Shown here piece by piece: positions 112 to 11,810 of a stretch of DNA of 25,523 nucleotides. Each line of letters opens with the position of its first letter. Within the stretch, counting starts at the first letter, position 1. The position numbers and the translations under genes are program-made. The DNA comes from a virus, in the IMG/VR virus record IMGVR_UViG_3300031997_000059, positions 1 through 25,523 of that record, one strand, 5' to 3'. The notes under the pieces are model-generated. The model worked only from the letters and a program-made list of their open reading frames with translations, did not search any database and had not been told where the DNA came from.

Positions 112-507
112 ATGGCTACCCGGAAGCCTTTAGCGAAGAAGGGCAAGAAGGCTAAAGCTAAAATGACCCGCGCGGTCTCTCCGCGCCCGACTCCGACCGA
201 TGCCCTGCCCTGGTCATTTGTCGAGATCCAATGGCGGGACGCGACGAGTGAATCTAACTGGAAATCTCAGGACGACTTGCCGAACCTCTCCATGGTGCTT
301 ACCAGGGGGTGGTTAGTGCGCTCAACTAAGGTTTGTGTCACCATCGCCGCTTCCATTGCTTCAATCGACCACTCCGAGGGTGACCAGAAGAATCACAAAA
401 CCATAATCGACTGCGGCGAGATCATCACCATCCCACGCGGCTGCGTATGTTCAATCCTAGAGTTGAACACGGCTGCGAAGCCGAAGAAGAAGGTGGTGCT
501 AAATTGA
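112..507 (+). CDS. Small conserved phage protein of unknown function
   Basis: The protein has 131 residues. The first 30 are very basic (repeated Lys/Ala, KKGKKAKAK), and a compact domain follows with PWSFVEIQWRDATSESNW, a TRGWLV segment and a TIPRGCVCSILEL segment. This W-x-D-A ... GWLV ... TIPxGC pattern resembles small proteins I recall near head genes of many siphophages, but no function is known to me. Start ATG 112 is preceded by AGGTGA. The stop TGA (505-507) overlaps the TTG start of the kinase gene, so the two are translationally coupled. The basic N-terminus could bind nucleic acid, which is speculation. Confidence 0.7.
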   Translation: MATRKPLAKKGKKAKAKMTRAVSPRPTPTDALPWSFVEIQWRDATSESNWKSQDDLPNLSMVLTRGWLVRSTKVCVTIAASIASIDHSEGDQKNHKTIIDCGEIITIPRGCVCSILELNTAAKPKKKVVLN

Positions 508-1046
508 TTATAGGTTTCTGTGGGAAGCTTCAGAGTGGCAAGTCGACCGTCGCTACTCATTTGGTCAAGGCGCATAACTTCATCCGGGTGCGCTTTGCAG
601 GGCCACTTAAAGACATGGTCAAAGCCCTTGGCCTGACAGAGGAGGAATACGACGGCTCACGTAAAGAAGAGCCATGCGAACTCCTGGGTGGCAAAACTCC
701 GCGGTGGGCCATGCAATCACTGGGGACCGAGTGGGGGCGCGACCTAATTGACCCCCAGCTGTGGGTTCGCGCGTGGCAGAAGCGGGTAGACTCTATTTGC
801 CTACAAAACCCATCTGCATCCATCGTCACAGATGACGTTCGGTTCCCGAACGAGGCGGCAGCTATTCGCTTGGTGGGTGGGAGACTCATTTACATTGAGC
901 GTAACCAAGATCTGCTGCAAGCGGACGGCACACTCCATCCCTCGGAGCGCTTTGCTTTCACACCTGACTCCGTGCTGCACAATTTTGGAACTATAGAGGA
1001 CCTATTCAAAAAAGTCCGTCAGGAGCTCGGCCTTGTCAGTGCTTGA
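504..1046 (+). CDS. Deoxynucleoside monophosphate kinase (P-loop NTPase)
   Basis: The likely product has 180 residues and starts at TTG 504, which overlaps the upstream stop as TTGA and has an AAGGTGG-like ribosome site at about 490. An ATG at 447 in the same frame lacks a ribosome site and would add 19 residues ahead of the P-loop. Walker A is GKLQSGKST (G7 to T15). Further family features are RFAGPLKDMVKALG, a WAMQSLGTEWGRDLIDPQLW segment and VTDDVRFPNEA. These match the pattern of T4 gp1-like dNMP kinases, which phosphorylate dNMPs to dNDPs for phage DNA synthesis. Together with the HD hydrolase that follows it forms a small nucleotide-pool pair inside the head operon. Confidence 0.85.
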   Translation: MIIGFCGKLQSGKSTVATHLVKAHNFIRVRFAGPLKDMVKALGLTEEEYDGSRKEEPCELLGGKTPRWAMQSLGTEWGRDLIDPQLWVRAWQKRVDSICLQNPSASIVTDDVRFPNEAAAIRLVGGRLIYIERNQDLLQADGTLHPSERFAFTPDSVLHNFGTIEDLFKKVRQELGLVSA

Positions 1047-1617
1047 CTTCACACCCAATGGTTGGATCCAGACGTACACGGGTCGCAAGTTTGTGGTCAT
1101 GGACCCTGACCCGGAGTGCATCGTAATTGAAGACATTGCCCACTCTTTAGCGAACCAATGCAGGTACGCAGGGCATTGCCTCCAGTTCTACTCGGTGGCC
1201 GAGCATTGCTACCATCTTTGGGCGCTGGCCTCACCTGAGAATAAGCACGTCGCACTAATGCACGACGCGACTGAGGCTTACTTAGTTGACGTGCCGCGAA
1301 CAGTGAAGGAGGCGCTTGGCGATTACCGACCCCTCGAGCACAAGTACGCCGAGATCATCGCCAAGCGGTTCAACCTTGAGTATCCGTGGCCTGAAGAGGT
1401 CCACGACTTAGACAACCGCATCCTTCTAGACGAGCGAGCGCAGAATATGCCCGCGTTCAGGAATGGCAAAGATAATTACTTACCTGCGGGTTATCAGTGG
1501 TGCAAGGCTGAGGAAGACGGCTGGCCTTTTCATAAGTCCCCACTCAATGTGCAGCTCCAGTTTTGGTCTCCTTGGGAGGCCGAAGAAAAGTTCCTTGAAG
1601 CGTTTTACGCGAGATAA
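1033..1617 (+). CDS. HD-domain phosphohydrolase (YfbR/5'-deoxynucleotidase-like)
   Basis: The protein has 194 residues. Start is TTG 1033, with AGGAG at 1021-1025 and 7 bases of spacing, and it overlaps the kinase gene by 14 bases. Metal-binding residues of the HD fold are visible: H37 in IEDIAHSLANQCRY, H48, H58 in YSVAEHC, the H77-D78 doublet in ALMHDATEAYL and D127 in DLDNRIL. This arrangement is typical of phage-encoded HD hydrolases related to YfbR, which dephosphorylate dNMPs. The neighbouring dNMP kinase supports a role in nucleotide-pool control, although the exact substrate cannot be read from the sequence. Confidence 0.85.
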   Translation: MSVLDFTPNGWIQTYTGRKFVVMDPDPECIVIEDIAHSLANQCRYAGHCLQFYSVAEHCYHLWALASPENKHVALMHDATEAYLVDVPRTVKEALGDYRPLEHKYAEIIAKRFNLEYPWPEEVHDLDNRILLDERAQNMPAFRNGKDNYLPAGYQWCKAEEDGWPFHKSPLNVQLQFWSPWEAEEKFLEAFYAR

Positions 1618-1620
1618 TCA

Positions 1621-2661
1621 ATGACGCATGTTCAAGAATGTGCCTGCCGCGACGCAGCAGAGCGGCGGGACCCGACAGGTACTAGCTCAATTCGCAAAGG
1701 CTTCGACCGTGAGGCAATCAAGCGGTTCCGAAACCTGCGTGCACTTGTGCAGCGCGTGCTCATTGATATGGATGTGCTTGGCTTCAAGGGCACGAGCATG
1801 GACAATATGGGGTTCGTGCGACTCTACACAGGGGACGGCTCCGGGGGTGACGACAACTCTATAATTGACTTTACCCCATCTGGTGACAAGGCCAGAGCCT
1901 TCAATACCTGGCTTAAGCAGGGGGTTGAGGACGTAGTGCTTGGTTCTGTGGACTGGCATATCCCCTACATTGCCAAAGCGTATGAGCGCGGTGTGAACGA
2001 TGCAGCGCGCCGCATGAGTGAAGGGATGGGGAAGACCGTCAATACGGACCTGAACCGCGCTATACACTGGCACACCCTGTCTCAAATCCAGGCCCGCACC
2101 CGCGATGAGTTTGTCAACGTCGCGGAAACTATGGGACAGAAGATCTCCCAGGTTCTTGCTCAGGGCTTGCTCGACAACTTAGATGCTACCACTCTCTGTC
2201 AACAGCTTCTGCACCGGGTGGACTCCATTGGCATTATGCGGGCGCGACTCGTCGTTAGTACTGAGATCATCTCGGCCTATAACGAGGCGGCGATCAACGC
2301 TTATGACGAGGGCGGGATTCGCCGCCTTGGAGTGCTTGCCGAATACGTGACCGGCAAGCCTCGTCAAGAAGCTAAGGATAAACTATTGCCCGACACCCCG
2401 CGCCCCGACTTTGGCCCCGGCATTTACAAGCGCGGTCCGAAGAAGGGTGAGCCAAAAAAGACTTCAAAATGGCCTGCCGGTCGTTGGCCTAAAGTGGCGT
2501 GGGTTACGGCTGGCGATGACTGGGTATGTGAGCAATGCGCCGCACTCGAGGATCAGATCTTCACGTTGGAGACTGCTCGAGGGATGCTTCCCCTGCACCC
2601 GAACTGCCGCTGTGCACTTTACCCCCTTGAAGAAATCGACGACGAGTCCGAGGCAGCGTAA
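1621..2661 (+). CDS. Mu gpF-like minor head / head morphogenesis protein
   Basis: The protein has 346 residues. The N-terminus (DPTGTSSIRKGFDREAIKRF) is the usual opening of this family, which supports ATG 1621 although no strong ribosome site precedes it. The middle is helical, with an RLVVSTEIISAYNEAAINAY segment. The C-terminus has the diagnostic gpF signature: C303-x2-C306, then LEDQIFTLETARG and HPNCRC (H326, C329, C331), probably a metal-binding knuckle. Family members are minor capsid proteins near the portal, needed for head assembly or DNA ejection. In related operons the prohead protease follows closely. Here about 5.3 kb of accessory genes separates the two. Confidence 0.88.
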   Translation: MTHVQECACRDAAERRDPTGTSSIRKGFDREAIKRFRNLRALVQRVLIDMDVLGFKGTSMDNMGFVRLYTGDGSGGDDNSIIDFTPSGDKARAFNTWLKQGVEDVVLGSVDWHIPYIAKAYERGVNDAARRMSEGMGKTVNTDLNRAIHWHTLSQIQARTRDEFVNVAETMGQKISQVLAQGLLDNLDATTLCQQLLHRVDSIGIMRARLVVSTEIISAYNEAAINAYDEGGIRRLGVLAEYVTGKPRQEAKDKLLPDTPRPDFGPGIYKRGPKKGEPKKTSKWPAGRWPKVAWVTAGDDWVCEQCAALEDQIFTLETARGMLPLHPNCRCALYPLEEIDDESEAA

Positions 2662-2915
2662 TGACAATCCTGGGCCCAGACGGCGAGCCGCTCCCCAACA
2701 AGAAGAACATCCTCGACCCCGACGACGTGGCGATGCGGATCAAGAAGCGCGAAACTCGTGAGTATGAGGACGCCTCCAAGGCACTGATCCGTTACGCGGC
2801 CTTTGGTATCAAGAAAAAGTGGCCCAAGAACCTTACTGATGATCTGCAAGATTGCGCGCTTTTACTGGCAGAGATTTATGTTGCCAAACGCGAGGGGATC
2901 ATCAAAGGTGCTTGA
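2661..2915 (+). CDS. Small hypothetical phage protein
   Basis: The protein has 84 residues and is charged, with 22 or more Lys/Arg/Asp/Glu residues in the first half. It contains LDPDDVAMRIKKRETREYED and ends ILAEIYVAKREG-like as LLLAEIYVAKREGIIKGA. It starts at ATG 2661 in a TAATG overlap with the gpF-like gene, so it is coupled to head morphogenesis. There is no signal peptide, membrane segment or recognisable domain. The composition suggests a small helical protein. Function is unknown to me. Confidence 0.6.
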   Translation: MTILGPDGEPLPNKKNILDPDDVAMRIKKRETREYEDASKALIRYAAFGIKKKWPKNLTDDLQDCALLLAEIYVAKREGIIKGA

Positions 2916-3111
2916 ACTCCTCGGACTTTACTATGCTATTGGGCTCTGGTTCCAATACTGGCTTCTTTGTCAGCCTGCATATGTAGCGGGGATCAAGGAG
3001 GCACAGCACCCCGATAGGTGGCAGCTAATCCACGCCTACTTAGCCTGTCTGGTCATGGCAACTATCTGGCCTAAGCACGTTTGGATATTGCTCAAAGCTA
3101 AACTCAAATGA
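2908..3111 (+). CDS. Small two-helix membrane protein
   Basis: The likely product has 67 residues and starts at GTG 2908, overlapping the upstream gene by 8 bases, with a GAGGGG ribosome site at about 2892. Two hydrophobic segments are visible: residues about 4-21 (LLGLYYAIGLWFQYWLLC) and about 40-62, including ACLVMATIWPKHVWILL. They are separated by a short polar loop (GIKEAQHPDRW), and the C-terminus is KAKLK. This fits an inner-membrane hairpin protein. It precedes the sugar-enzyme cassette and lies far from the lysis genes, so a role in membrane anchoring or exclusion is possible but unproven. A longer reading from 2803 would overlap the upstream gene by over 100 bases. Confidence 0.6.
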   Translation: MLELLGLYYAIGLWFQYWLLCQPAYVAGIKEAQHPDRWQLIHAYLACLVMATIWPKHVWILLKAKLK

Positions 3112-3272
3112 AAGTGTGGCTGGTATTCTTGCTGTGGGGTCATCTCTGGACGACCCCCATGCCGTACGCCAAGCATGACGAGTGCGAAGCAGCTGGCAAG
3201 CATGCAATGCAGCTAACTCATAGGGAACACCCGCAAATGATCGCGGCGTATGCTTGCATCGAGGTGAAGTAA
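3108..3272 (+). CDS. Small exported Cys-containing protein
   Basis: The protein has 54 residues. It starts at ATG 3108 in an ATGA overlap with the membrane protein before it and stops at TAA 3270-3272, where the next ATG begins. The N-terminus is a signal peptide-like hydrophobic stretch (KVWLVFLLWGHLW) followed by a short mature part with two cysteines (C26 in DECEAAGKHA, C50 in YACIEV). The pattern of leader, Cys-x-x-Ala helix and late Cys is seen again at 23963 in this window. The coupled start and stop on both sides make it a convincing gene despite its length. Function is unknown. Confidence 0.6.
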   Translation: MKVWLVFLLWGHLWTTPMPYAKHDECEAAGKHAMQLTHREHPQMIAAYACIEVK

Positions 3273-4150
3273 TGCGCTTGTGGGTACTCGATGATATAGG
3301 AGGATGGGGCAAAGCCCTGGCCCTCGCAGCCAACCGCCCAGGATGGTCTGTGCAGCTCGGCGGGAAGCTCCCGTACGATCCATGCCATGCCTTCTTGCGG
3401 ATCAATCAAGGTGGCGTGCGCATGGACCAAGAGAAAGCGCTGCTCCGCCAGCTCGTGAGCAAGGACTTCAAGACTATCCCGTCACTCGAGGACGGTGAGA
3501 TGTACGAAAACAAGCTGGCCCAAACGATTGCGTATGGGGCTTTCATGCCCAGGACGCATGTTATTCGGGGGCCGGAGCTTGCTCATTCCTACGTGGGTAA
3601 TCTCGGGTACCCCTTCTTGTCGAAGTCGAGTACCGGCTCCGCATCCTGCAACGTGCGACTAATAAAGGATGCCGCGAGTGCCAGACGTGAGATAGCTGAG
3701 GTCTTTGGTGATTATGGGATGAAAGCGCCACACCGACTTGGTGAGCAGCTGCAGCGCGACTACCTTATCTGGCAAGAGTTTCTACCTGGCAACGCCTATG
3801 ACTATCGGGTGTGTAAGATTGGCAGACCACTGATGATTTTGCGACGTGGAAACCGCGATGATCTGCCCTTTGCATCGGGCAGCGGCAAGACGGAAGCCAT
3901 TGTTGAATTGGACGCCGAGACAAAAGCCGTCTACGATGCAAGCGCCGAGTTCTTCCACCACACCGGCACGAACTGGTGTGGTATTGATTTGGTCAAAGAT
4001 CTACAGGGCAAGTGGAAGGTCTTGGAGACGACCATAGGATGGTCGCAGAAAGCTTACGCCAACTGCACATTCTTCGGCCCGACAAAGCGCAAGGGGGCCG
4101 AGATATTCGACCTGACCTGCGATGAACTCGAAGCCGGAGTGTGGGGATGA
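3272..4150 (+). CDS. ATP-grasp domain ligase
   Basis: The protein has 292 residues and starts at ATG 3272 (TAATG overlap, GAGGTG ribosome site 5 bases upstream); an ATG at 3254 in frame has no such site. ATP-grasp features: PFLSKSSTGSAS (K118 plus a Ser/Gly-rich phosphate loop), IWQEFLPGNAYDYRVCKIGR (residues 166-185), an ASGSGK stretch (201-206), GIDLVKD (D239) and LETTIGWS, where E252 is the expected metal-binding Glu. The usual E-x-N of the family is E-T-T here. ATP-grasp enzymes join a carboxylate to an amine or thiol through an acyl-phosphate. The substrate is unknown. Being first of six coupled genes with sugar enzymes, it may attach an amino acid or similar group to a glycan or protein. 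Confidence 0.8.
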   Translation: MRLWVLDDIGGWGKALALAANRPGWSVQLGGKLPYDPCHAFLRINQGGVRMDQEKALLRQLVSKDFKTIPSLEDGEMYENKLAQTIAYGAFMPRTHVIRGPELAHSYVGNLGYPFLSKSSTGSASCNVRLIKDAASARREIAEVFGDYGMKAPHRLGEQLQRDYLIWQEFLPGNAYDYRVCKIGRPLMILRRGNRDDLPFASGSGKTEAIVELDAETKAVYDASAEFFHHTGTNWCGIDLVKDLQGKWKVLETTIGWSQKAYANCTFFGPTKRKGAEIFDLTCDELEAGVWG

Positions 4151-4821
4151 GAACTACACTCCCTATTTACGACACCCCCGAACTCTTCGCTGAGTGGGAG
4201 AAGGCGCTTGCAGTCCTCGAGCGGATTGGTGAGCTTGGTGTAGTCCGGGCAATGGGTGTAGCAACTCGGCGGATGATCTTCCAAGTCTTGCGGGCAATGG
4301 AAGCGAAGGATGTCCTTGACATCGGCACCTGCTTCGGAACCAGCGCTTGCACCATGGCGCTTGCAGGGTGCAGCGTCGTCACTGTTGACATAAGGCCGAT
4401 CAATGGTGCGGATGGGCAATGGCGCAGGTTTGGACGTCCACGCGACGCGCGAACACTTTGGACTAACGCTGGCGTTGTGGACCGTATTGAAGTTGTGCGT
4501 GCGCACTCGCACGAGTATCTAGCCGAGACGGATCAAACATTCGACTTCATCTCATTAGATGGGAACCATGGAGAGCGGCACGTCTACGACGAGATCAACC
4601 TGGCACTAGCGCGACTCCGCCCGCAAGGTCTGATCTTCATGGATGATGTTCAGACAGGAACCCTGCCAGCTGGCTGCACTCCCATCCATGGACCTAAGCT
4701 GGCGATCGAGCGGCACCTGGCGGAGGGGGCACCGTTTCGTTGCATCCCCTTTACGCAATCTATGTACGGGGACCCGACAGGGGTTGCGTTTCTTGTAGGG
4801 ATTGAAAATGGACCTAACTGA
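4147..4821 (+). CDS. Class I SAM-dependent methyltransferase (Methyltransf_24-like)
   Basis: The protein has 224 residues and starts at ATG 4147 in an ATGA overlap with the ATP-grasp gene; GTG 4141 is a weaker alternative. Rossmann motif I is VLDIGTCFGTSACTMA (D58 to A71) and the acidic end of beta-2 is VVTVDIRP (D81). Motif IV-like sequences are DFISLDGNHGERHVYDEI and LIFMDDV. The GNH-x-Y-DE pattern is common in small-molecule and sugar O-methyltransferases of the Methyltransf_24 type. In this cassette a glycan O-methyl cap is the simplest guess. DNA methylation is unlikely because no N-x-P-Y/F-type catalytic motif of DNA adenine or cytosine methylases is seen. Confidence 0.82.
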   Translation: MRTTLPIYDTPELFAEWEKALAVLERIGELGVVRAMGVATRRMIFQVLRAMEAKDVLDIGTCFGTSACTMALAGCSVVTVDIRPINGADGQWRRFGRPRDARTLWTNAGVVDRIEVVRAHSHEYLAETDQTFDFISLDGNHGERHVYDEINLALARLRPQGLIFMDDVQTGTLPAGCTPIHGPKLAIERHLAEGAPFRCIPFTQSMYGDPTGVAFLVGIENGPN

Positions 4822-5479
4822 TCTCGCAAACCAATGTGGCACGGATAAGGGTAACAAGTGTCTGAACCGGCACCACTACACTCGGATTTACTCTGAGTTA
4901 TTTGAACCCATCCGGTATAAGCCCATCCGACTGCTTGAGATCGGACTCTTGCACATAGACGACCCCGCGCGTACGAGTGGGTTTCCCAAGTGCCCGTCTC
5001 TGCTTATGTGGGGTAAGTATTTCCCCAACGCCGAGATCTTCGGCTTCGACATTGAAGACTTCTCTGCGGTTACAATGCCACGGACTCGCATCTTCCAGGG
5101 TAACTCCTCGCACCGTGACGACCTGCACGCGTTTCTTGCAGAGAGTGGGGGCAGCTTCGATGTTATCATCGACGACGCCTCCCATGCCTCGCATCACCAA
5201 CAGATCGCACTCGCCACACTATTTCCTGACGTAGTGCCCGGAGGTCTTTACATTATTGAAGATCTACATTGGCAGGATCCTACGCAGGAGCTTCCCGGGG
5301 TCACCAAGACCAAGACAATACTCCGCCGCCTGTCCGCCGAGATGGGGCTTGCCTGTCCCTATATCTCAGACCGCGAGGCTAACTATCTCACAAACCACAC
5401 TGAGTATGTAGATATCTATGACAGCAAAAGCCCAGACTGTGGGGAAGCGTTAGCAATAATTCATAAGAGGTTGACATGA
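4808..5479 (+). CDS. Class I SAM-dependent methyltransferase, sugar O-methyltransferase-like (macrocin/mycinamicin type)
   Basis: The protein has 223 residues and starts at ATG 4808, overlapping the previous gene by 14 bases; TTG 4802 in frame is possible. It opens with GTDKG (residues 11-15) and HHYTRIYSELFEP, then RLLEIG, MWGKYFPNAEIFGFDIED (D81), FDVIIDDASHASHHQ (DDASH 122-126) and PGGLYIIEDLHW. This order is that of the O-methyltransferases acting on macrolide deoxysugars and related glycans, where the DD and H residues bind a metal. The glycine-rich SAM loop is unusual: after EIG comes LLHIDDPARTSG rather than a GxG. It is the third gene of the cassette and probably methylates a sugar hydroxyl, which is inference from family. 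Confidence 0.8.
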   Translation: MDLTDLANQCGTDKGNKCLNRHHYTRIYSELFEPIRYKPIRLLEIGLLHIDDPARTSGFPKCPSLLMWGKYFPNAEIFGFDIEDFSAVTMPRTRIFQGNSSHRDDLHAFLAESGGSFDVIIDDASHASHHQQIALATLFPDVVPGGLYIIEDLHWQDPTQELPGVTKTKTILRRLSAEMGLACPYISDREANYLTNHTEYVDIYDSKSPDCGEALAIIHKRLT

Positions 5480-6396
5480 GCGTTTTGATTACTGGCTGCT
5501 ACGGATTTATTGGGCATGCCACCGCGGTACGACTATGCGAGCAGGGTCACCAAGTTTTTGGCCTTGACAAGATACGCGATGCGATCAGCCCAAAGGCGGC
5601 CCGCATTGCGAACTTGCAGAGGTTCAGTAACTTCCACTTCCGCGAGATCAACCTGGCAAACTACGAAGAGCTCATGCAGTTCTTCAAGTCGAATAGCATC
5701 GACAGCATCGTGCATCTTGCCGGGCAGTATTCTGTCCCCATGACCACGGGCACGGTCAAGCAATTTGTCGAAGCTAACCTGGTTGGGTACATGAATCTCA
5801 TGGAAGCTGCCCGCATCCATCATGTTCCCCGGGTAGTCTACGCCAGCTCGACGTTCGTGCAAGACGGGAAAGTCCCAAACTCGATGTATGGTGTGACCAA
5901 AGAGTTTGGTGAGCGCTGTGGTAGCGTGTACTGTCATAACGCGGGCATGGGGTTCATAGCAATTCGGTTCGGCTCGACGTACGGGCCAGACTGCCGCCCG
6001 GACATTGGGGCGTATCAACTCATCCGGAAGCTCTACGCAAAGCAACCAATCGACGTCACAGTCGGCGGGTTCAACTACAAAGTTGCGTTCCTGTTCTCCG
6101 AGGATGCGGTTGAGGTCGTACTACGCTGCTTAGAGAAGAAGCTCGACATCCCCTACTGTGTGGTCACGGCTGTGGCTGAAGACAACCTTGCGGACCTGAA
6201 CGATCTTCTCACCGCGATGGAGAAGCACTCTGGCATCAAGGCAATTCGCAGTGGTGAGTTGCTGCCGCGCCAGGGGTTCCAGGTTCCCACTGAGAAGTGT
6301 GACCAACTCCGCGCGGTAATAGGGTATGCTCCACAAACTAAACTAGACGAAGGCATCCGAAAGTTTGTGGAATGGTACAAGACATCGGCGCACTGA
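5476..6396 (+). CDS. NAD-dependent nucleotide-sugar epimerase/dehydratase (extended SDR)
   Basis: The protein has 306 residues and starts at ATG 5476 (ATGA overlap). The dinucleotide-binding motif TGCYGFIG (T6 to G13) is followed by an acidic residue at the end of beta-2 (GLDKIRD, D31). Catalytic residues of extended short-chain dehydrogenases are present: YASSTF (Ser/Thr 124-126) and Y138-x3-K142 in MYGVTKEFGE. FGSTYGPDCRPDIGAY is the usual sugar-nucleotide contact region. The length matches UDP-glucose/UDP-glucuronate 4-epimerases and related dehydratases. It would supply a modified nucleotide sugar for the two glycosyltransferases just downstream. Exact substrate and reaction are not readable. 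Confidence 0.87.
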   Translation: MSVLITGCYGFIGHATAVRLCEQGHQVFGLDKIRDAISPKAARIANLQRFSNFHFREINLANYEELMQFFKSNSIDSIVHLAGQYSVPMTTGTVKQFVEANLVGYMNLMEAARIHHVPRVVYASSTFVQDGKVPNSMYGVTKEFGERCGSVYCHNAGMGFIAIRFGSTYGPDCRPDIGAYQLIRKLYAKQPIDVTVGGFNYKVAFLFSEDAVEVVLRCLEKKLDIPYCVVTAVAEDNLADLNDLLTAMEKHSGIKAIRSGELLPRQGFQVPTEKCDQLRAVIGYAPQTKLDEGIRKFVEWYKTSAH

Positions 6397-7115
6397 CAAT
6401 CTTCACCTGGCTGTGGACTGGCTGGCGACCAATTTATAACCACACTCACGTCAACGCCATGGCCCGCATGCTTGGGGAGTTCCTCCCTATCCCGCACAAG
6501 GTGATCTGCGTAACAGATCAACCCGGGGGCATCGAGTGTGAGACTTACCCGCTGTGGGATATTCCTTTCGAAGTTATTGGTATCAACGCAAGACCATCAA
6601 TGGGTCGGGTGCAGCCGCGCCAGGAGCGCGGCCTCGTCCATTTCCCAAACTCATACCGGCGGCTCAAGCTGTTCTCACCCTGGGCAGCGCAGGAGTTCCC
6701 GGGGAAGGTTATGTCCATTGATTTAGATGCGGTCATCACTCAGGACTTGTCGCCTCTAATTACGCCGCATGACTTCCGGATTAACCAGGGCGTGTGCTGT
6801 CCATATAACGGGGGCATGTGGATGCTCCGAACTGGGTCGCGTGTGCGCACCTGGGAGTGCTTCGACCAGCACGCCTTTAGAAAAACGACCCACCGCGGGT
6901 ACGTCGGCTCCGATCAGGCCTGGATGGCCTATTCAATGCCTGGGGAAGCAACCTGGACCCGCAAAGAAGGTGTCTATCACTTCTCTACGGCAATTCCAGG
7001 GGAGGATCTGTCGGGGTGCCGGATAATGTTCAACGCCGGTGGGATCAAGCCGTGGCATCACCAGTTCGCGGCGAAGTTCCCAGCCATGCACGCCGCGTAC
7101 ATGCGGTTTCTATGA
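6372..7115 (+). CDS. Glycosyltransferase (first of a paralogous pair)
   Basis: The protein has 247 residues. ATG 6372 overlaps the epimerase by 25 bases. A CTG at 6393 that overlaps the stop would give an N-terminus more like its paralogue, so the start is uncertain. Features are a HVNAMARML helix, VICVTDQPGG, YPLWD, SYRRLKLF, a DxD-type metal/nucleotide-sugar site in MSIDLDAVI (D117-L-D119), YNGGMWML, GSDQAWMAY and GIKPWHH. This order fits a GT-A-fold glycosyltransferase of the small phage and capsule type. Neighbouring epimerase and methyltransferases support a glycan role. It shares about a dozen block motifs with the next gene. Confidence 0.78.
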   Translation: MVQDIGALTIFTWLWTGWRPIYNHTHVNAMARMLGEFLPIPHKVICVTDQPGGIECETYPLWDIPFEVIGINARPSMGRVQPRQERGLVHFPNSYRRLKLFSPWAAQEFPGKVMSIDLDAVITQDLSPLITPHDFRINQGVCCPYNGGMWMLRTGSRVRTWECFDQHAFRKTTHRGYVGSDQAWMAYSMPGEATWTRKEGVYHFSTAIPGEDLSGCRIMFNAGGIKPWHHQFAAKFPAMHAAYMRFL

Positions 7116-7906
7116 TTACGTTTGTCACCTTCAAGTGGGGGTCACTCTATACATCGGAGCACGTCAACGCTCTCGCGTTCGGACTCTACGAGGGAATGCG
7201 AGGCGTCCCTTACCGATTGATTTGCGTAACAGATCAGCCCGAAGGCGTGGCGGTTGAGACGTTCCCATTGTGGGATGACTGTTCGCAGATGCTGAGCCCG
7301 CGTGGACCTGAGGCACCGAGCTGTTACCGCCGCCTCAAGCTCTTTGACCCTGCTACTACACGAGCCCTCGGCATCTCGGATGGTAAGCGGGTTGTGCAGA
7401 TCGACTTAGACATGCTGGTAACCGGAGAAATCTGGCCCCTCTTCGAGCGCGCAGAACCATTCGTAGGATGGCACGCGAAAGGTTCGGTGCAGCAGCTCAC
7501 GTACAACGGCTCTATGTGGATGTTCCCTGCCGGGACCCTCGGGTACTTGTGGGCTGAGTTCAATCAAAGTGATGGTCCACGCTTGGCAATGAACGCCGGG
7601 TTCTTCGGGTCCGATCAAGCCATCTTGTCACATCTCCTGGTAGGGAAGGGTAGAGCGCGTGCAGGGTGGGATCAAAGCGACGGGTGCTATGCCTTTCGCG
7701 ATATTAGAGTTTCTCCATGCCAACCCCCGGACGCGCGACTCATTAGTTTCTATGGTCGTTGGAAGCCTTGGGACGCCGAGACTCACCGGCTTGCGCCTTG
7801 GGTCCGAGTGGCGTGGGAGAGAGTTAAACTAGAGTCTTGCAATACCGGGTTACTTGACCTAAATGCAAGTACTCAGGCGCAGGTACGCAGTACTCGCGTG
7901 CGGTAG
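7112..7906 (+). CDS. Glycosyltransferase (second of a paralogous pair)
   Basis: The protein has 264 residues and starts at ATG 7112 in an ATGA overlap; a longer reading from 7016 would overlap its neighbour by 100 bases. Shared blocks with the previous gene are EHVNALAF, LICVTDQPEG, ETFPLWD, CYRRLKLF, VQIDLDMLVTGEIWPL (D98-L-D100), TYNGSMWMFPAG, FGSDQAIL and RWKPWD. The two probably arose by tandem duplication and then diverged, so they likely add successive sugars or use different donors. A Ser/Thr/Arg-rich tail of about 25 residues (from roughly residue 240) has no counterpart in the first copy. The gene closes the coupled cassette; 27 bases then separate it from the prohead protease. Confidence 0.78.
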   Translation: MITFVTFKWGSLYTSEHVNALAFGLYEGMRGVPYRLICVTDQPEGVAVETFPLWDDCSQMLSPRGPEAPSCYRRLKLFDPATTRALGISDGKRVVQIDLDMLVTGEIWPLFERAEPFVGWHAKGSVQQLTYNGSMWMFPAGTLGYLWAEFNQSDGPRLAMNAGFFGSDQAILSHLLVGKGRARAGWDQSDGCYAFRDIRVSPCQPPDARLISFYGRWKPWDAETHRLAPWVRVAWERVKLESCNTGLLDLNASTQAQVRSTRVR

Positions 7907-7933: not shown

Positions 7934-10252
7934 ATGCCGAAGCCTCACGCGCGGCGCGTCCGCGCTACGGACGCGACCGAAGTGTGGTGCGCGTACTCCG
8001 AAGAAAAGTTCGTCGTAACTGGCGATGGGCACTTCGAGGGGCGAGCTCTCACCTTTGCCGAGCCAGACGAAAACTTTGGCTACACGTTCGAGCCCGACGC
8101 CTTCGATGCCGCACTTGCAGAGCGCGAAGTGAAGGGCGTTAAAATGTTCCGGGAGCATGACGTCTCTCGTCCGATTGGAGCATGGCTAGAGATCTGGCGT
8201 GACGAGCATTGCCTTTACGTCAAGGGTAAGTTGACACTCGAGACTGCCGATGCCAAAGAGGTGAAGGCGCTCATGGAAGACGGAGCGCTGAACTGCCTGT
8301 CGATCGGCTTTCATATCTTGGCTGAGTCTGACAAGCACGTACTCGAAGCTGACATCGTTGAGATCTCAGTGGTAGCATTCCCCGCTGACCCATCTGCTAC
8401 CCTTGGTAAGGATGGAAATGAGTTCAGCGATACACTCCGCAAGTATGCGGCCAATGGACAACTCCCCACGCGCGTGCGTTCGGTCTTGCCCAAGGAAGCA
8501 CAAACACTCTACCGCAAGGCCTGGAACAAGTTTTGCGCGACCCATCCTGATGCGCCACACTCGCGCGCTCACTCGGTAGCATGGAGAGCGGTCACGCGTA
8601 AGTTCAGTGCCCCGCACAAGGAGGCTGGCATGTGGGTTAAGAAGTTGAAGTACGACGCTGGTGGTAACCCCTACCACGTCGCGCAAGGCGAGCACGGTGG
8701 TGAGTTCACGACTGGTCCCTATGGACCGGGAGCCGCAGGTGACACCGCCGAGGCTATCGCCGAATCTTTGCAGGACTTCGCTGAAGTCAGTGACGAGGGC
8801 AAGCTCCAGATCGTCAGCTATCAAGACGCCGGGGTGATGACTCGTGACTCCGGCTTCGTCGTCCGCAGCAAGGATGACACAATCTACGACTCGGAGCACG
8901 TCAACGAAATCGTCCGCGAGGCGGCTGAGGAGCGCGGCTACGACACTCACGACTATAAGGACGTGGGCATCCTCACCAACGACACTGGTTTTGTCGCCCG
9001 CAAAGCGAAGAAGGAGTTCCAGGTCACCGTGGTCAAATCAGCCCGCAATGAGCATCAGGTAACTATCGTGCAGACAAAGTTTGTCGGTATGCGTGGAGGG
9101 CTTGACGCCAGTTCCCGCCAGTTCACCGACTCCATCGTCCTTGACGGTATGCGTCGAACCGCTGACGGTTATCTTGCAGCTACCGCGCGGGTAGCTCGCA
9201 CCGGTATCCAACTTTACTCCGGCCATGACTGTGGACGTCCAGAGATGGACGTCGTTCGCGTCTACCGGCCCGAGTCTGAAGTTTTCGCCCCTGAGGCGAT
9301 CAAGAGTTTTGCCCACCGTCCCGTCACTGTCGATCACCCGAGCGAAATGGTTAACGCCGACAACTGGAAGGACTATGCGGTTGGGCAGACAGGGGACAAG
9401 GTGGAGTTCGGCAACGGATTTGTCCGCGTTCCCCTTGTCCTCATGGATGCAGCTTCGATCAAAGCAGTCGAAGCAGGTAAGCGTGAACTGTCCATGGGAT
9501 ACACAACTGATCTTAAATGGAAGCACGGCTTCACCAAAGACGGACAGGAATATGATGCGGTGCAAACCGACATCAGAGGTAACCACCTAGCGATTGTCGC
9601 CCGGGCTCGCGGTGGTTCTGAACTTCGCCTGGGTGACAGGAACGGCACAGAAGGAGATCCCGAAATGCCCGAGATTAAAACGCAAACTGTTGAACTCGAC
9701 GGACTGCCAGTCGAGGTCACCGATGGCACCGCCCCATACCTCAAGAAGTTTGTTGCCCAGATGACCGAGAAACTCTCGAAGCTGGCAGCTGACATGACTG
9801 CGGCAGAGGCCAAGGCCGAAGAGGACAAGAAGAAGTACAAGGAAGATGCCGACGCCGCCCTGGCGACGAAGGATGCCGAACTCGAGACTGTCAAGAAGCA
9901 ACTCGAGGACGCCAAGCTGACGCCAGAGAGCCTTGACAAGTTGGTGAAGGACCGCGCTGACATCATCAGCAAGGCCAAAGTCATCATCGGCGACTCACTC
10001 GTGACTGATGGCCGCGACAACGCGGACATCTGCAAGCAGGTTGTTGCCAAGCGTATTGGCGACATAGCCAAAGATTGGTCTGAGGATCAGGTCGCAGCCA
10101 GCTTCAATACGCTGGCAGCCGACAAGTCCAAGACCAAAGAGTTCGCAGCCGCACTGGCTGACAGCTCCGGCAAGAAGGATGCTCGTGAGGAAGCTTACGA
10201 CAGCTACCAAACCAAGCTTCAGAATGCCTGGCGCAATACGCCGGCTGCGTAG
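7934..10252 (+). CDS. Fusion prohead protease: S78-like + ChaB-like + DUF2213-like + scaffold
   Basis: The protein has 772 residues and starts at ATG 7934 after AGGTG. Residues about 18-160 are an HK97 (S78)-type prohead protease: MFREHDVSRPIG (H75), LSIGF (S123) and an EADIVEISVVAFPADP strand. Residues about 182-238 look like ChaB: LPKEAQTLYRKAWNKF, then SVAWRAV and an AGMWVKK end. Residues about 295-380 hold a duplicated D-x-G-x-x-T-x-D-x-GFV motif and two QVTVV-like strands. Residues about 396-570 are DUF2213-like: VTVDHPSEMV (H468), ELSMGY (S520). From about 600 a charged coiled coil resembles a scaffold. It would clip capsid precursors during head maturation. Nested starts inside are described separately. 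Confidence 0.85.
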   Translation: MPKPHARRVRATDATEVWCAYSEEKFVVTGDGHFEGRALTFAEPDENFGYTFEPDAFDAALAEREVKGVKMFREHDVSRPIGAWLEIWRDEHCLYVKGKLTLETADAKEVKALMEDGALNCLSIGFHILAESDKHVLEADIVEISVVAFPADPSATLGKDGNEFSDTLRKYAANGQLPTRVRSVLPKEAQTLYRKAWNKFCATHPDAPHSRAHSVAWRAVTRKFSAPHKEAGMWVKKLKYDAGGNPYHVAQGEHGGEFTTGPYGPGAAGDTAEAIAESLQDFAEVSDEGKLQIVSYQDAGVMTRDSGFVVRSKDDTIYDSEHVNEIVREAAEERGYDTHDYKDVGILTNDTGFVARKAKKEFQVTVVKSARNEHQVTIVQTKFVGMRGGLDASSRQFTDSIVLDGMRRTADGYLAATARVARTGIQLYSGHDCGRPEMDVVRVYRPESEVFAPEAIKSFAHRPVTVDHPSEMVNADNWKDYAVGQTGDKVEFGNGFVRVPLVLMDAASIKAVEAGKRELSMGYTTDLKWKHGFTKDGQEYDAVQTDIRGNHLAIVARARGGSELRLGDRNGTEGDPEMPEIKTQTVELDGLPVEVTDGTAPYLKKFVAQMTEKLSKLAADMTAAEAKAEEDKKKYKEDADAALATKDAELETVKKQLEDAKLTPESLDKLVKDRADIISKAKVIIGDSLVTDGRDNADICKQVVAKRIGDIAKDWSEDQVAASFNTLAADKSKTKEFAAALADSSGKKDAREEAYDSYQTKLQNAWRNTPAA
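9665..10252 (+). CDS. Nested in-frame scaffold protein (internal start within the protease gene)
   Basis: An ATG at 9665 lies in the same frame as the protease fusion (its Met578) and has AAGGAG at 9651-9656, 8 bases upstream, which is stronger than the ribosome site of the full gene. The product would be 195 residues, consisting of a short strand-rich start (MPEIKTQTVELDG), then a long Lys/Glu/Ala coiled coil (about residues 25-90 of the short form) and a helical C-terminus. In lambda, scaffold Nu3 is made from an internal in-frame start in protease gene C, so the same arrangement is inferred here. The start coincides with the end of the DUF2213-like domain, which supports a real second product. 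Confidence 0.6.
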   Translation: MPEIKTQTVELDGLPVEVTDGTAPYLKKFVAQMTEKLSKLAADMTAAEAKAEEDKKKYKEDADAALATKDAELETVKKQLEDAKLTPESLDKLVKDRADIISKAKVIIGDSLVTDGRDNADICKQVVAKRIGDIAKDWSEDQVAASFNTLAADKSKTKEFAAALADSSGKKDAREEAYDSYQTKLQNAWRNTPAA

Positions 10253-10838: not shown

Positions 10839-11810
10839 ATGTCCCGCATGAATATGGCGGACGCCCAGCAACAGGCGCTGGGCTTCCTAACCGAGCAGGC
10901 CTCGTTCATTGAGGCCGAAGTTGTCAAGGTGCTTTACCCTGACATCCAGTACCCTGCCCTTGTCCCTGTCGATTCTTCGGCACCGGAGTGGGCCAAGTCC
11001 GTGACTTATTTCAGCATGGACATGACGGGGCGCGCGGATTGGTTCCATCATGAAGCCAAGGACATCCCGCTGGCAGACGTTGCCCGCGAGAAGTTCGAGA
11101 CCGGCGTCAGGATGGCTGGTATCGGTTATCGGTACACTTTGGAAGAGTTGGGCCAGGCCATGATGGTTGGGCAGAACCTTTCCAGTGAGCGTGCAGCAGC
11201 TGCTCGCCGTTCGTATGAGGAATTCTTGGACGACAAGATTCTCAACGGCGACACTGGCATGAACTTCCTCGGCCTCATTAACAACACCGCCGTCACTTCG
11301 GTCCTCGCGGCTGAGACCGGTGGTGTTGCTGGACACACTGACTGGGCGAATAAGACCGGTGACCAGATCATCACCGATATCAATACCGCCCTGTCCGCAA
11401 TCAACACGAACTCCTTGCAGATCGAGTTGGCGGACACGGTTCTCCTCCCTGTCGCGGAGATGAACCGCCTTGCAACCACGCGGCTCGCCTCGGCATCCGA
11501 TATGTCGGTGTTCGAGTGGGTCATGCGGTACAACGTCTACACCGCGCAGACAGGGCAGCCCTTGATGATCCGCGCGGTGCGTGGTCTTGAGACAGCCGGC
11601 ACGGCATCGAGCGGACGTATGATCGCTTACCGTCGTGACCCTGCGGTTCTCAAGGTTCACATTCCTATGCCTCACCGGTTTCTGCCCGTCTGGCAGACCG
11701 GCCCGATCACCTTTGACGTACCCGGTATCTTCCGCTTCGCGGGCCTCGAGATTCGGCGCCCCGGTGCGGTCCGTTATGTTGACGGCATCGTGACTAACCA
11801 GTACTCCTAA
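10839..11810 (+). CDS. Major capsid protein (DUF2184-type, HK97 fold)
   Basis: The protein has 323 residues and starts at ATG 10839 with AAGGAG (10825-10830) and 8 bases of spacing, a strong site expected for the most abundant virion protein. Features are a helical N-terminus (AQQQALGFLTEQASFIE), a YPDIQYPALVPVD segment, GIGYRYTLEELGQAM, an EEFLDDKILNGD helix, LLPVAEMNRLATTR and a beta-rich C-terminus (MPHRFLPVWQTGPITFDVPG, RRPGAVRYVDG). These match DUF2184 capsid proteins, which assemble the icosahedral shell. The N-terminal helix may be the part removed by the upstream protease. A hairpin follows the gene at 11835-11873. Confidence 0.88.
   Translation: MSRMNMADAQQQALGFLTEQASFIEAEVVKVLYPDIQYPALVPVDSSAPEWAKSVTYFSMDMTGRADWFHHEAKDIPLADVAREKFETGVRMAGIGYRYTLEELGQAMMVGQNLSSERAAAARRSYEEFLDDKILNGDTGMNFLGLINNTAVTSVLAAETGGVAGHTDWANKTGDQIITDINTALSAINTNSLQIELADTVLLPVAEMNRLATTRLASASDMSVFEWVMRYNVYTAQTGQPLMIRAVRGLETAGTASSGRMIAYRRDPAVLKVHIPMPHRFLPVWQTGPITFDVPGIFRFAGLEIRRPGAVRYVDGIVTNQYS

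Follow-up and report, generated by a model that had tools for sequence, protein, structure and literature searches.

An ATP-grasp ligase and glycosyltransferase cassette in the head operon of a metagenomic phage, with a putative role in decoration of the capsid C-terminus

Our analysis of a 25,523-nt virus record (IMG/VR IMGVR_UViG_3300031997_000059, positions 1-25,523, hereafter the window) revealed a cassette of six enzyme genes (3272-7906, + strand), flanked by a gpF-like head gene and a prohead protease, which we consider to serve late-expressed virion decoration with a probability of roughly 0.6. The decorated site is probably the C-terminus of the major capsid protein. The conserved core of the cassette is an ATP-grasp ligase and a glycosyltransferase (GT); a short-chain dehydrogenase/reductase (SDR), methyltransferases (MT) and further components are optional additions. 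Among tailed phages, glycosylation of the virion has been described for a few mycobacteriophages, in which it protects the particle from antibodies. The present module, recurrent in dozens of metagenomic phages, includes an ATP-grasp ligase, an activity unreported for virion decoration in the searchable literature, and the capsid C-terminal tail associated with it represents a concrete candidate acceptor, which opens the nature and purpose of the groups that phages place on their shells to direct testing by mass spectrometry.

ORF calls and domain matches on both flanks confirmed the position of the six-gene block given in the initial annotation, all genes lying on the + strand. To the left stands the gpF-like head morphogenesis protein (1621..2661; PF04233 Phage_Mu_F, E=8e-7; phrog_758, E=1e-20), and to the right the prohead protease (7934..10252), in which Peptidase_S78, ChaB and DUF2213 domains are fused, with the major capsid protein (10839..11810; PF09950, E=1e-83) further downstream. 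The block itself opens with the ATP-grasp ligase (3272..4150), a core gene with an ArgX/LysX/RimK-like fold, and continues with three accessory genes: the SAM-dependent O-methyltransferase-like MT1 (4147..4821; PF13578 Methyltransf_24, E=2e-15), a second SAM methyltransferase, MT2 (4808..5479; phrog_21658 methyltransferase, E=1.6e-22), and an extended SDR resembling nucleotide-sugar epimerases (5476..6396; PF01370 Epimerase, E=1.6e-31). It closes with the GT8-like glycosyltransferase GT1 (6372..7115), the other core gene, recognized by its predicted fold and invariant DxD, and its paralogue GT2 (7112..7906; phrog_1962 glycosyltransferase, E=9e-10). Overlaps were found at 5/5 junctions (4, 14, 4, 25 and 4 nt), a coupling slightly tighter than the four of five initially described, and the enzyme identities proposed at that stage (ATP-grasp, two methyltransferases, SDR, two glycosyltransferases) are backed by domain profiles and folds. 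GC content displays no shift over the six-gene block and thus does not point to a recent acquisition from elsewhere. The interval between gpF and the ATP-grasp gene contains three short ORFs (2661-2915, 2908-3111 and 3108-3272). A search for DNA near-identical to the window gave no match among 50,697 phage records.

Single-sequence domain searches returned no confident match for the ATP-grasp protein or GT1, and profiles and folds were used instead. The AF2 model of the ligase (pLDDT 90.7) had its best fold match in ArgX (Z=24.1, rmsd 3.0, 265/292 residues) and also matched LysX and RimK (Z=22.7 for the latter). With ArgX/LysX and RimK the ligase shares the whole-length fold and a set of catalytic residues consisting of two Lys, one Arg, one Asp and one Glu (K81, K118, R179, D239 and E252, invariant in 51/51 ligase sequences), whereas it differs from them in its low identity (15-20%), its occurrence, as far as searched, on phage contigs only and the replacement of the usual ExN motif by Ex[ST], the third position being Ser/Thr in 50/51 sequences and Ala in 1/51. 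The NCBIfam models for RimK and LysX matched it at E of about 1e-5, far under the curated cut-offs (TIGR00768, 24.8 vs 143.4 bits; TIGR02144, 23.6 vs 275.6 bits). The protein is thus described here as RimK/LysX-like and, judging from its modelled fold and residues, probably active, and is not assigned as a member of those families.

ArgX, LysX and RimK join amino acids to proteins. Since these enzymes, nearest in fold to the ligase, and glycogenin, nearest in fold to the glycosyltransferase, are all protein-modifying, their likeness counts for decoration of a virion protein. The same closeness of fold could also speak for a host target, with ribosomal protein S6 or some other host factor tagged by the RimK-like ligase and acted on by the GT as well; this reading is rather improbable, as the GT pairing is near-obligate and located in head operons, whereas host-takeover genes are usually early. 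In its favor, the R2K ATP-grasps of phages have been proposed as taggers of host proteins (PMC4431377). The R2K clade is characterized by the lack of a linker lysine ahead of its RAGNYA domain (PMC4431377), and the invariance of Lys81, which by position occupies the linker-lysine place in 51/51 sequences, argues against this clade; with an R2K_3 match at E=0.1 only, R2K membership was rejected. Within the first 50 kb of Myrna, listed as an R2K phage, no annotated ATP-grasp/GT pair was seen.

A GT profile search of IMG/VR yielded 148 relatives, and when their neighbors were clustered, ligase genes came to light next to several of these GTs. The ligase profile in turn detected 62 loci in IMG/VR vs 1 in 84,980 prokaryote genomes. 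That lone locus lies on a 75,335-base contig of the same size as the IMG/VR contig of locus L116, and therefore in all likelihood belongs to a phage whose contig was binned into a Myxococcaceae MAG; as pattern-based searches can miss distant relatives, the confinement of the ligase to phages holds within these searches. When loci found by the ligase alone were collapsed at 90% identity, restricted to those with at least 2 kb downstream and scanned for GT in six frames, a GT of the same family was present within 3 kb of the ligase in 42/42 non-redundant loci (41 downstream, 1 directly upstream). The initial view of the genes as a set is supported in that ligase and GT proved inseparable over these 42 loci; a single pathway formed by them is presumed.

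In 51 non-redundant loci, accessory genes lying up to 3.5 kb from the ligase were tallied, giving a small predicted membrane protein in 16, a methyltransferase in 11, a sialyltransferase-like protein in 11, GT2/GT-D in 7, an SDR in 4 and a glycerophosphodiesterase in 2. As the SDR occurs in only 4/51 loci, synthesis of an own nucleotide sugar is not essential. A recognized head or tail gene was present on 37/51 ligase contigs. Relatives of the ligase or MT1 were looked for in the phage collection and none was found. In the defense-system search a methyltransferase gave a weak match to mad2 only and the other five genes gave none, and the candidate assignment as a defense system was rejected.

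A search for the same gene order in other phages, proposed earlier as a check, revealed one exact and one partial match. The overlapping contig L002 (4,806 bp, 100%) is identical to the window and adds no independent evidence. Contig L099 comes from the sample of L002, yet represents a different phage, and carries all six genes in identical order with the same neighbors as the block in the window; its protein identities to the window are 58% for the ligase, 64% for MT1, 76% for the SDR and 70% for GT1, with GT2 61% identical over its visible part and MT2 only 27%. The 37-kb contig L003, whose capsid and gpF are 72% and 35% identical to those of the window, has ligase (56%), SDR (67%), GT1 (52%) and GT2 (47%) at the same site, a small ORF replacing both methyltransferases. 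These six-gene and four-gene forms indicate a conserved order in which the methyltransferases can be missing, and the arrangement gpF, ligase to GT, protease recurs in L003, L079 and L091. The six genes regarded as a set thus keep their order in L099 (6/6) and L003 (4/6), but do not form one fixed unit.

Such variability might be expected of unrelated morons gathered at a spot among the head genes that tolerates insertions: the accessory gene content varies greatly, and relatives carry other genes at the site, with the portal directly followed by the protease in L013 and an amidase-like ORF in L011. This explanation is nevertheless highly improbable in view of the ligase-GT pairing in 42/42 loci and the retention of the six-gene order in L099 at 58-76% protein identity, MT2 apart. 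The flanks of the same phages bear on a further alternative, hypermodification of DNA, in which sugars and amino acids would be placed on modified bases with the aid of the upstream dNMP kinase and HD phosphatase (447-1617). Genes for a dNMP kinase and a dNMP phosphatase adjoin gpF in the window, L003 and L099; they were, however, found only in this small phage group, and a base hydroxymethylase of the thymidylate synthase type was encoded in 0/47 partial ligase-bearing records, so that we regard hypermodification as improbable. The search for PF00303 relatives, negative in these 47 records, was positive in 9/14 control genomes, and the specific route via hydroxymethylated bases was rejected.

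The glycosyltransferases gave no Pfam match as single sequences. The AF2 model of GT1 (pLDDT 88.2) resembles glycogenin (Z=18.1) and LgtC (Z=17.7), and the GT profile run against PDB chains recovered glycogenin (E=8e-5). GT1 has in common with these GT8 enzymes the GT-A fold (Z about 18) and the DxD motif, located at 117-119 with D117 and D119 invariant in 26 sequences, but differs from them in a sequence identity of about 9-14%. GT1 and GT2 are paralogues (30% identity, E=2e-27). The GxxGxxG motif and the SST...YxxxK active site of the SDR are kept in its close relatives. 4,6-Dehydratases carry an Asp-Glu pair, and its absence from the SDR suggests an epimerase. The homologous family of MT1 was present within 3.5 kb of the ligase in 11/51 loci.

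The late head-operon position of the cassette suggests the virion as its target, and comparison of capsid proteins pointed in the same direction. Capsids of cassette phages carry a short extension after the conserved RYVDGI, first noticed on 15 capsid proteins, with tails including VTNQYS, SGVNLYS, SDYAS and LTPEYE; in the window the candidate acceptor tail VTNQYS constitutes the last six capsid residues (11790-11807, + strand). The comparison covered 55 non-redundant capsids for which no less than 5 kb of sequence lay upstream; 19 were cassette-positive and 36 were without a detected cassette. A tail of at least 4 residues ending in Ser/Glu was present in 19/19 of the former vs 0/36 of the latter, in which tails of at least 4 residues occurred in 10/36, none of them Ser/Glu-terminal (Fisher values for the association of tail and cassette, both ignoring kinship, were 7e-8 and 4e-15). 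The terminal Ser/Glu rule was framed after this table. In a later scan, with the rule fixed first, 19 new cassette-negative and 0 new cassette-positive capsids were obtained, and 18 were as predicted, the exception being the cassette-negative L276/L277 with the tail TSNS. Both sets joined, the Ser/Glu-ended tail is found in 19/19 cassette-positive capsids vs 1/55 relatives without a detected cassette.

The correlation between capsid tail and cassette is strong and weakly independent. On the phylogeny each of the two traits shows 6 changes, with only one contrast on strongly supported branches, and tail and cassette may accordingly go back to a single origin. The tail is also present in GT-positive loci without a detected ligase, and the correlation therefore bears on the GT and not on the ligase. 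Phages with other capsid families displayed no clear tail rule, nor did tail-tube and protease-capsid C-termini.

Covariation of the tail with the cassette has to be weighed against modification of the host surface, that is, late remodeling of LPS, capsule or wall glycan that would keep out superinfecting phages or release progeny from debris. LPS is assembled with the help of GT8 enzymes such as LgtC, clusters of GT, SDR and MT genes in jumbo cyanophages have been interpreted in this sense (PMC7824862), and a small predicted membrane protein is encoded between ligase and GT in many loci. Against this, the cassette belongs to the head operon, its presence covaries with the capsid C-terminal tail, and no gene for a flippase, a polymerase or an acceptor lipid was seen in the window; we consider a host-surface target unlikely. 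The initial annotation had named both the host surface and the virion, for example the Ig-like tail tube domain or the capsid. The virion is the best supported of these by the late head operon and the capsid-tail correlate, with some support for the major capsid protein and no specific support for the Ig-like tail tube.

Under the preferred reading of virion decoration, GT1 and GT2, as GT8-type enzymes, would transfer sugar onto a virion protein, most likely onto hydroxyl residues of the short capsid C-terminal tail. The ATP-grasp enzyme would activate a carboxylate with ATP and join it to an amine, most likely adding an amino acid to the capsid tail or to the sugar, while the SDR would make or convert a nucleotide sugar and MT1 and MT2 would methylate the product. 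We infer every reaction, the step order and the target from computed features, namely the gene set and its coupling, the folds with catalytic residues kept, the near-obligate ligase-GT pairing, the head-operon site and the tail correlate. A more specific and tentative version pictures a virus-confined two-enzyme module, a RimK-like ligase with a glycogenin-like transferase, that might build a hybrid amino-acid/sugar tag on the capsid tail, optional enzymes varying it from phage to phage.

As regards the ligase, the searchable literature bears out the statement that no described phage system has this exact set, but a similar cassette exists at nearly the same site in mycobacteriophage Corndog (cluster O), where the portal and protease genes are separated by gp35-gp38, which code for an O-methyltransferase, two GTs and an N-acetylglucosaminyltransferase (PMC4351075). 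Methyltransferase and GT genes lie between portal and capsid protease there and between portal/gpF and protease here; unlike the present cassette, gp35-gp38 are not reported to include an ATP-grasp ligase or SDR. The Corndog capsid has been reported as glycosylated (PMC12363180), and a report quoted in PMC12619734 describes capsid and tail-tube subunits of mycobacteriophages that bear glycans at their C-termini, which the capsid-tail correlation fits. Tetraselmis viridis virus S20 has a 38% identical GT homologue in a series of sialyltransferase-like, methyltransferase and GT genes that separates the head genes from the head-closure gene, but no ATP-grasp or SDR relative was detected in its head region. 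The Corndog and S20 cassettes indicate that this kind of system is already known. A published ligase-GT pair or capsid-tail correlate was not found within the open-licence literature, and the ATP-grasp partner, the near-obligate pairing with a GT8-like enzyme, the phage confinement in the searches made and the capsid-tail correlate seem to be new. Relatives of MT2 have glycosyltransferases as neighbors, both in prophages of mycobacteria and in a sugar cluster of a cyanophage.

Among prokaryote genomes, the ATP-grasp ligase of the cassette found a single match (L158), on a 75,335-base contig (RPRB01000006.1) of a Myxococcaceae metagenome-assembled genome. Because the IMG/VR contig carrying the ligase locus L116 is equally long (75,335 bases), RPRB01000006.1 is probably a phage contig that was binned with the Myxococcaceae genome. 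Tetraselmis viridis virus S20 (L004, NC_020840.1), whose recorded host is algal, yet whose genome is of the tailed-phage type, carries a run of sialyltransferase-like, glycosyltransferase and methyltransferase genes flanked by head genes.

Near the ligase in 16 of 51 non-redundant loci, and often positioned between the ligase and glycosyltransferase genes, lies a gene for a small protein (about 100 aa; L145 1972-2274 and homologues) that is predicted to reside in the membrane and shows the pattern PRETxSGxxGR...HC. Its sole match was a weak one to phrog_3342, of unknown function. In L139 (8953-9801), and also in L132 and L135, the slot between ligase and glycosyltransferase holds a domain of the glycerophosphodiester phosphodiesterase type (PF03009, E=4e-20).

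Immediately 5' of the gpF-like gene, a dNMP kinase and an HD-type dNMP phosphatase are encoded at window positions 447-1617, a position that this pair retains in both the four-gene form L003 and the different phage L099. Two short ORFs, for which no family matches were found, precede the ligase gene (2908-3272); they encode a 67-aa hydrophobic protein, 53% identical to its L099 counterpart, and, just ahead of the ligase, a 54-aa product that begins with a signal-like segment. A few kb 5' of the cassette, the overlapping contig L002 (431-2101) and L099 (3-1376) carry a gene whose DNA contains 66-69-base tandem repeats, and its product, built of units of roughly 22 aa (SLFTDTDTFFAPTV...), likewise gave no family match.

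The capsid tail rule had one exception, the TSNS tail with terminal Ser in the capsid relatives L276 and L277, where no upstream cassette was detected. The 772-aa prohead protease (window 7934-10252) combines Peptidase_S78, ChaB and DUF2213 in a single ORF, an uncommon architecture that is also found in L003.
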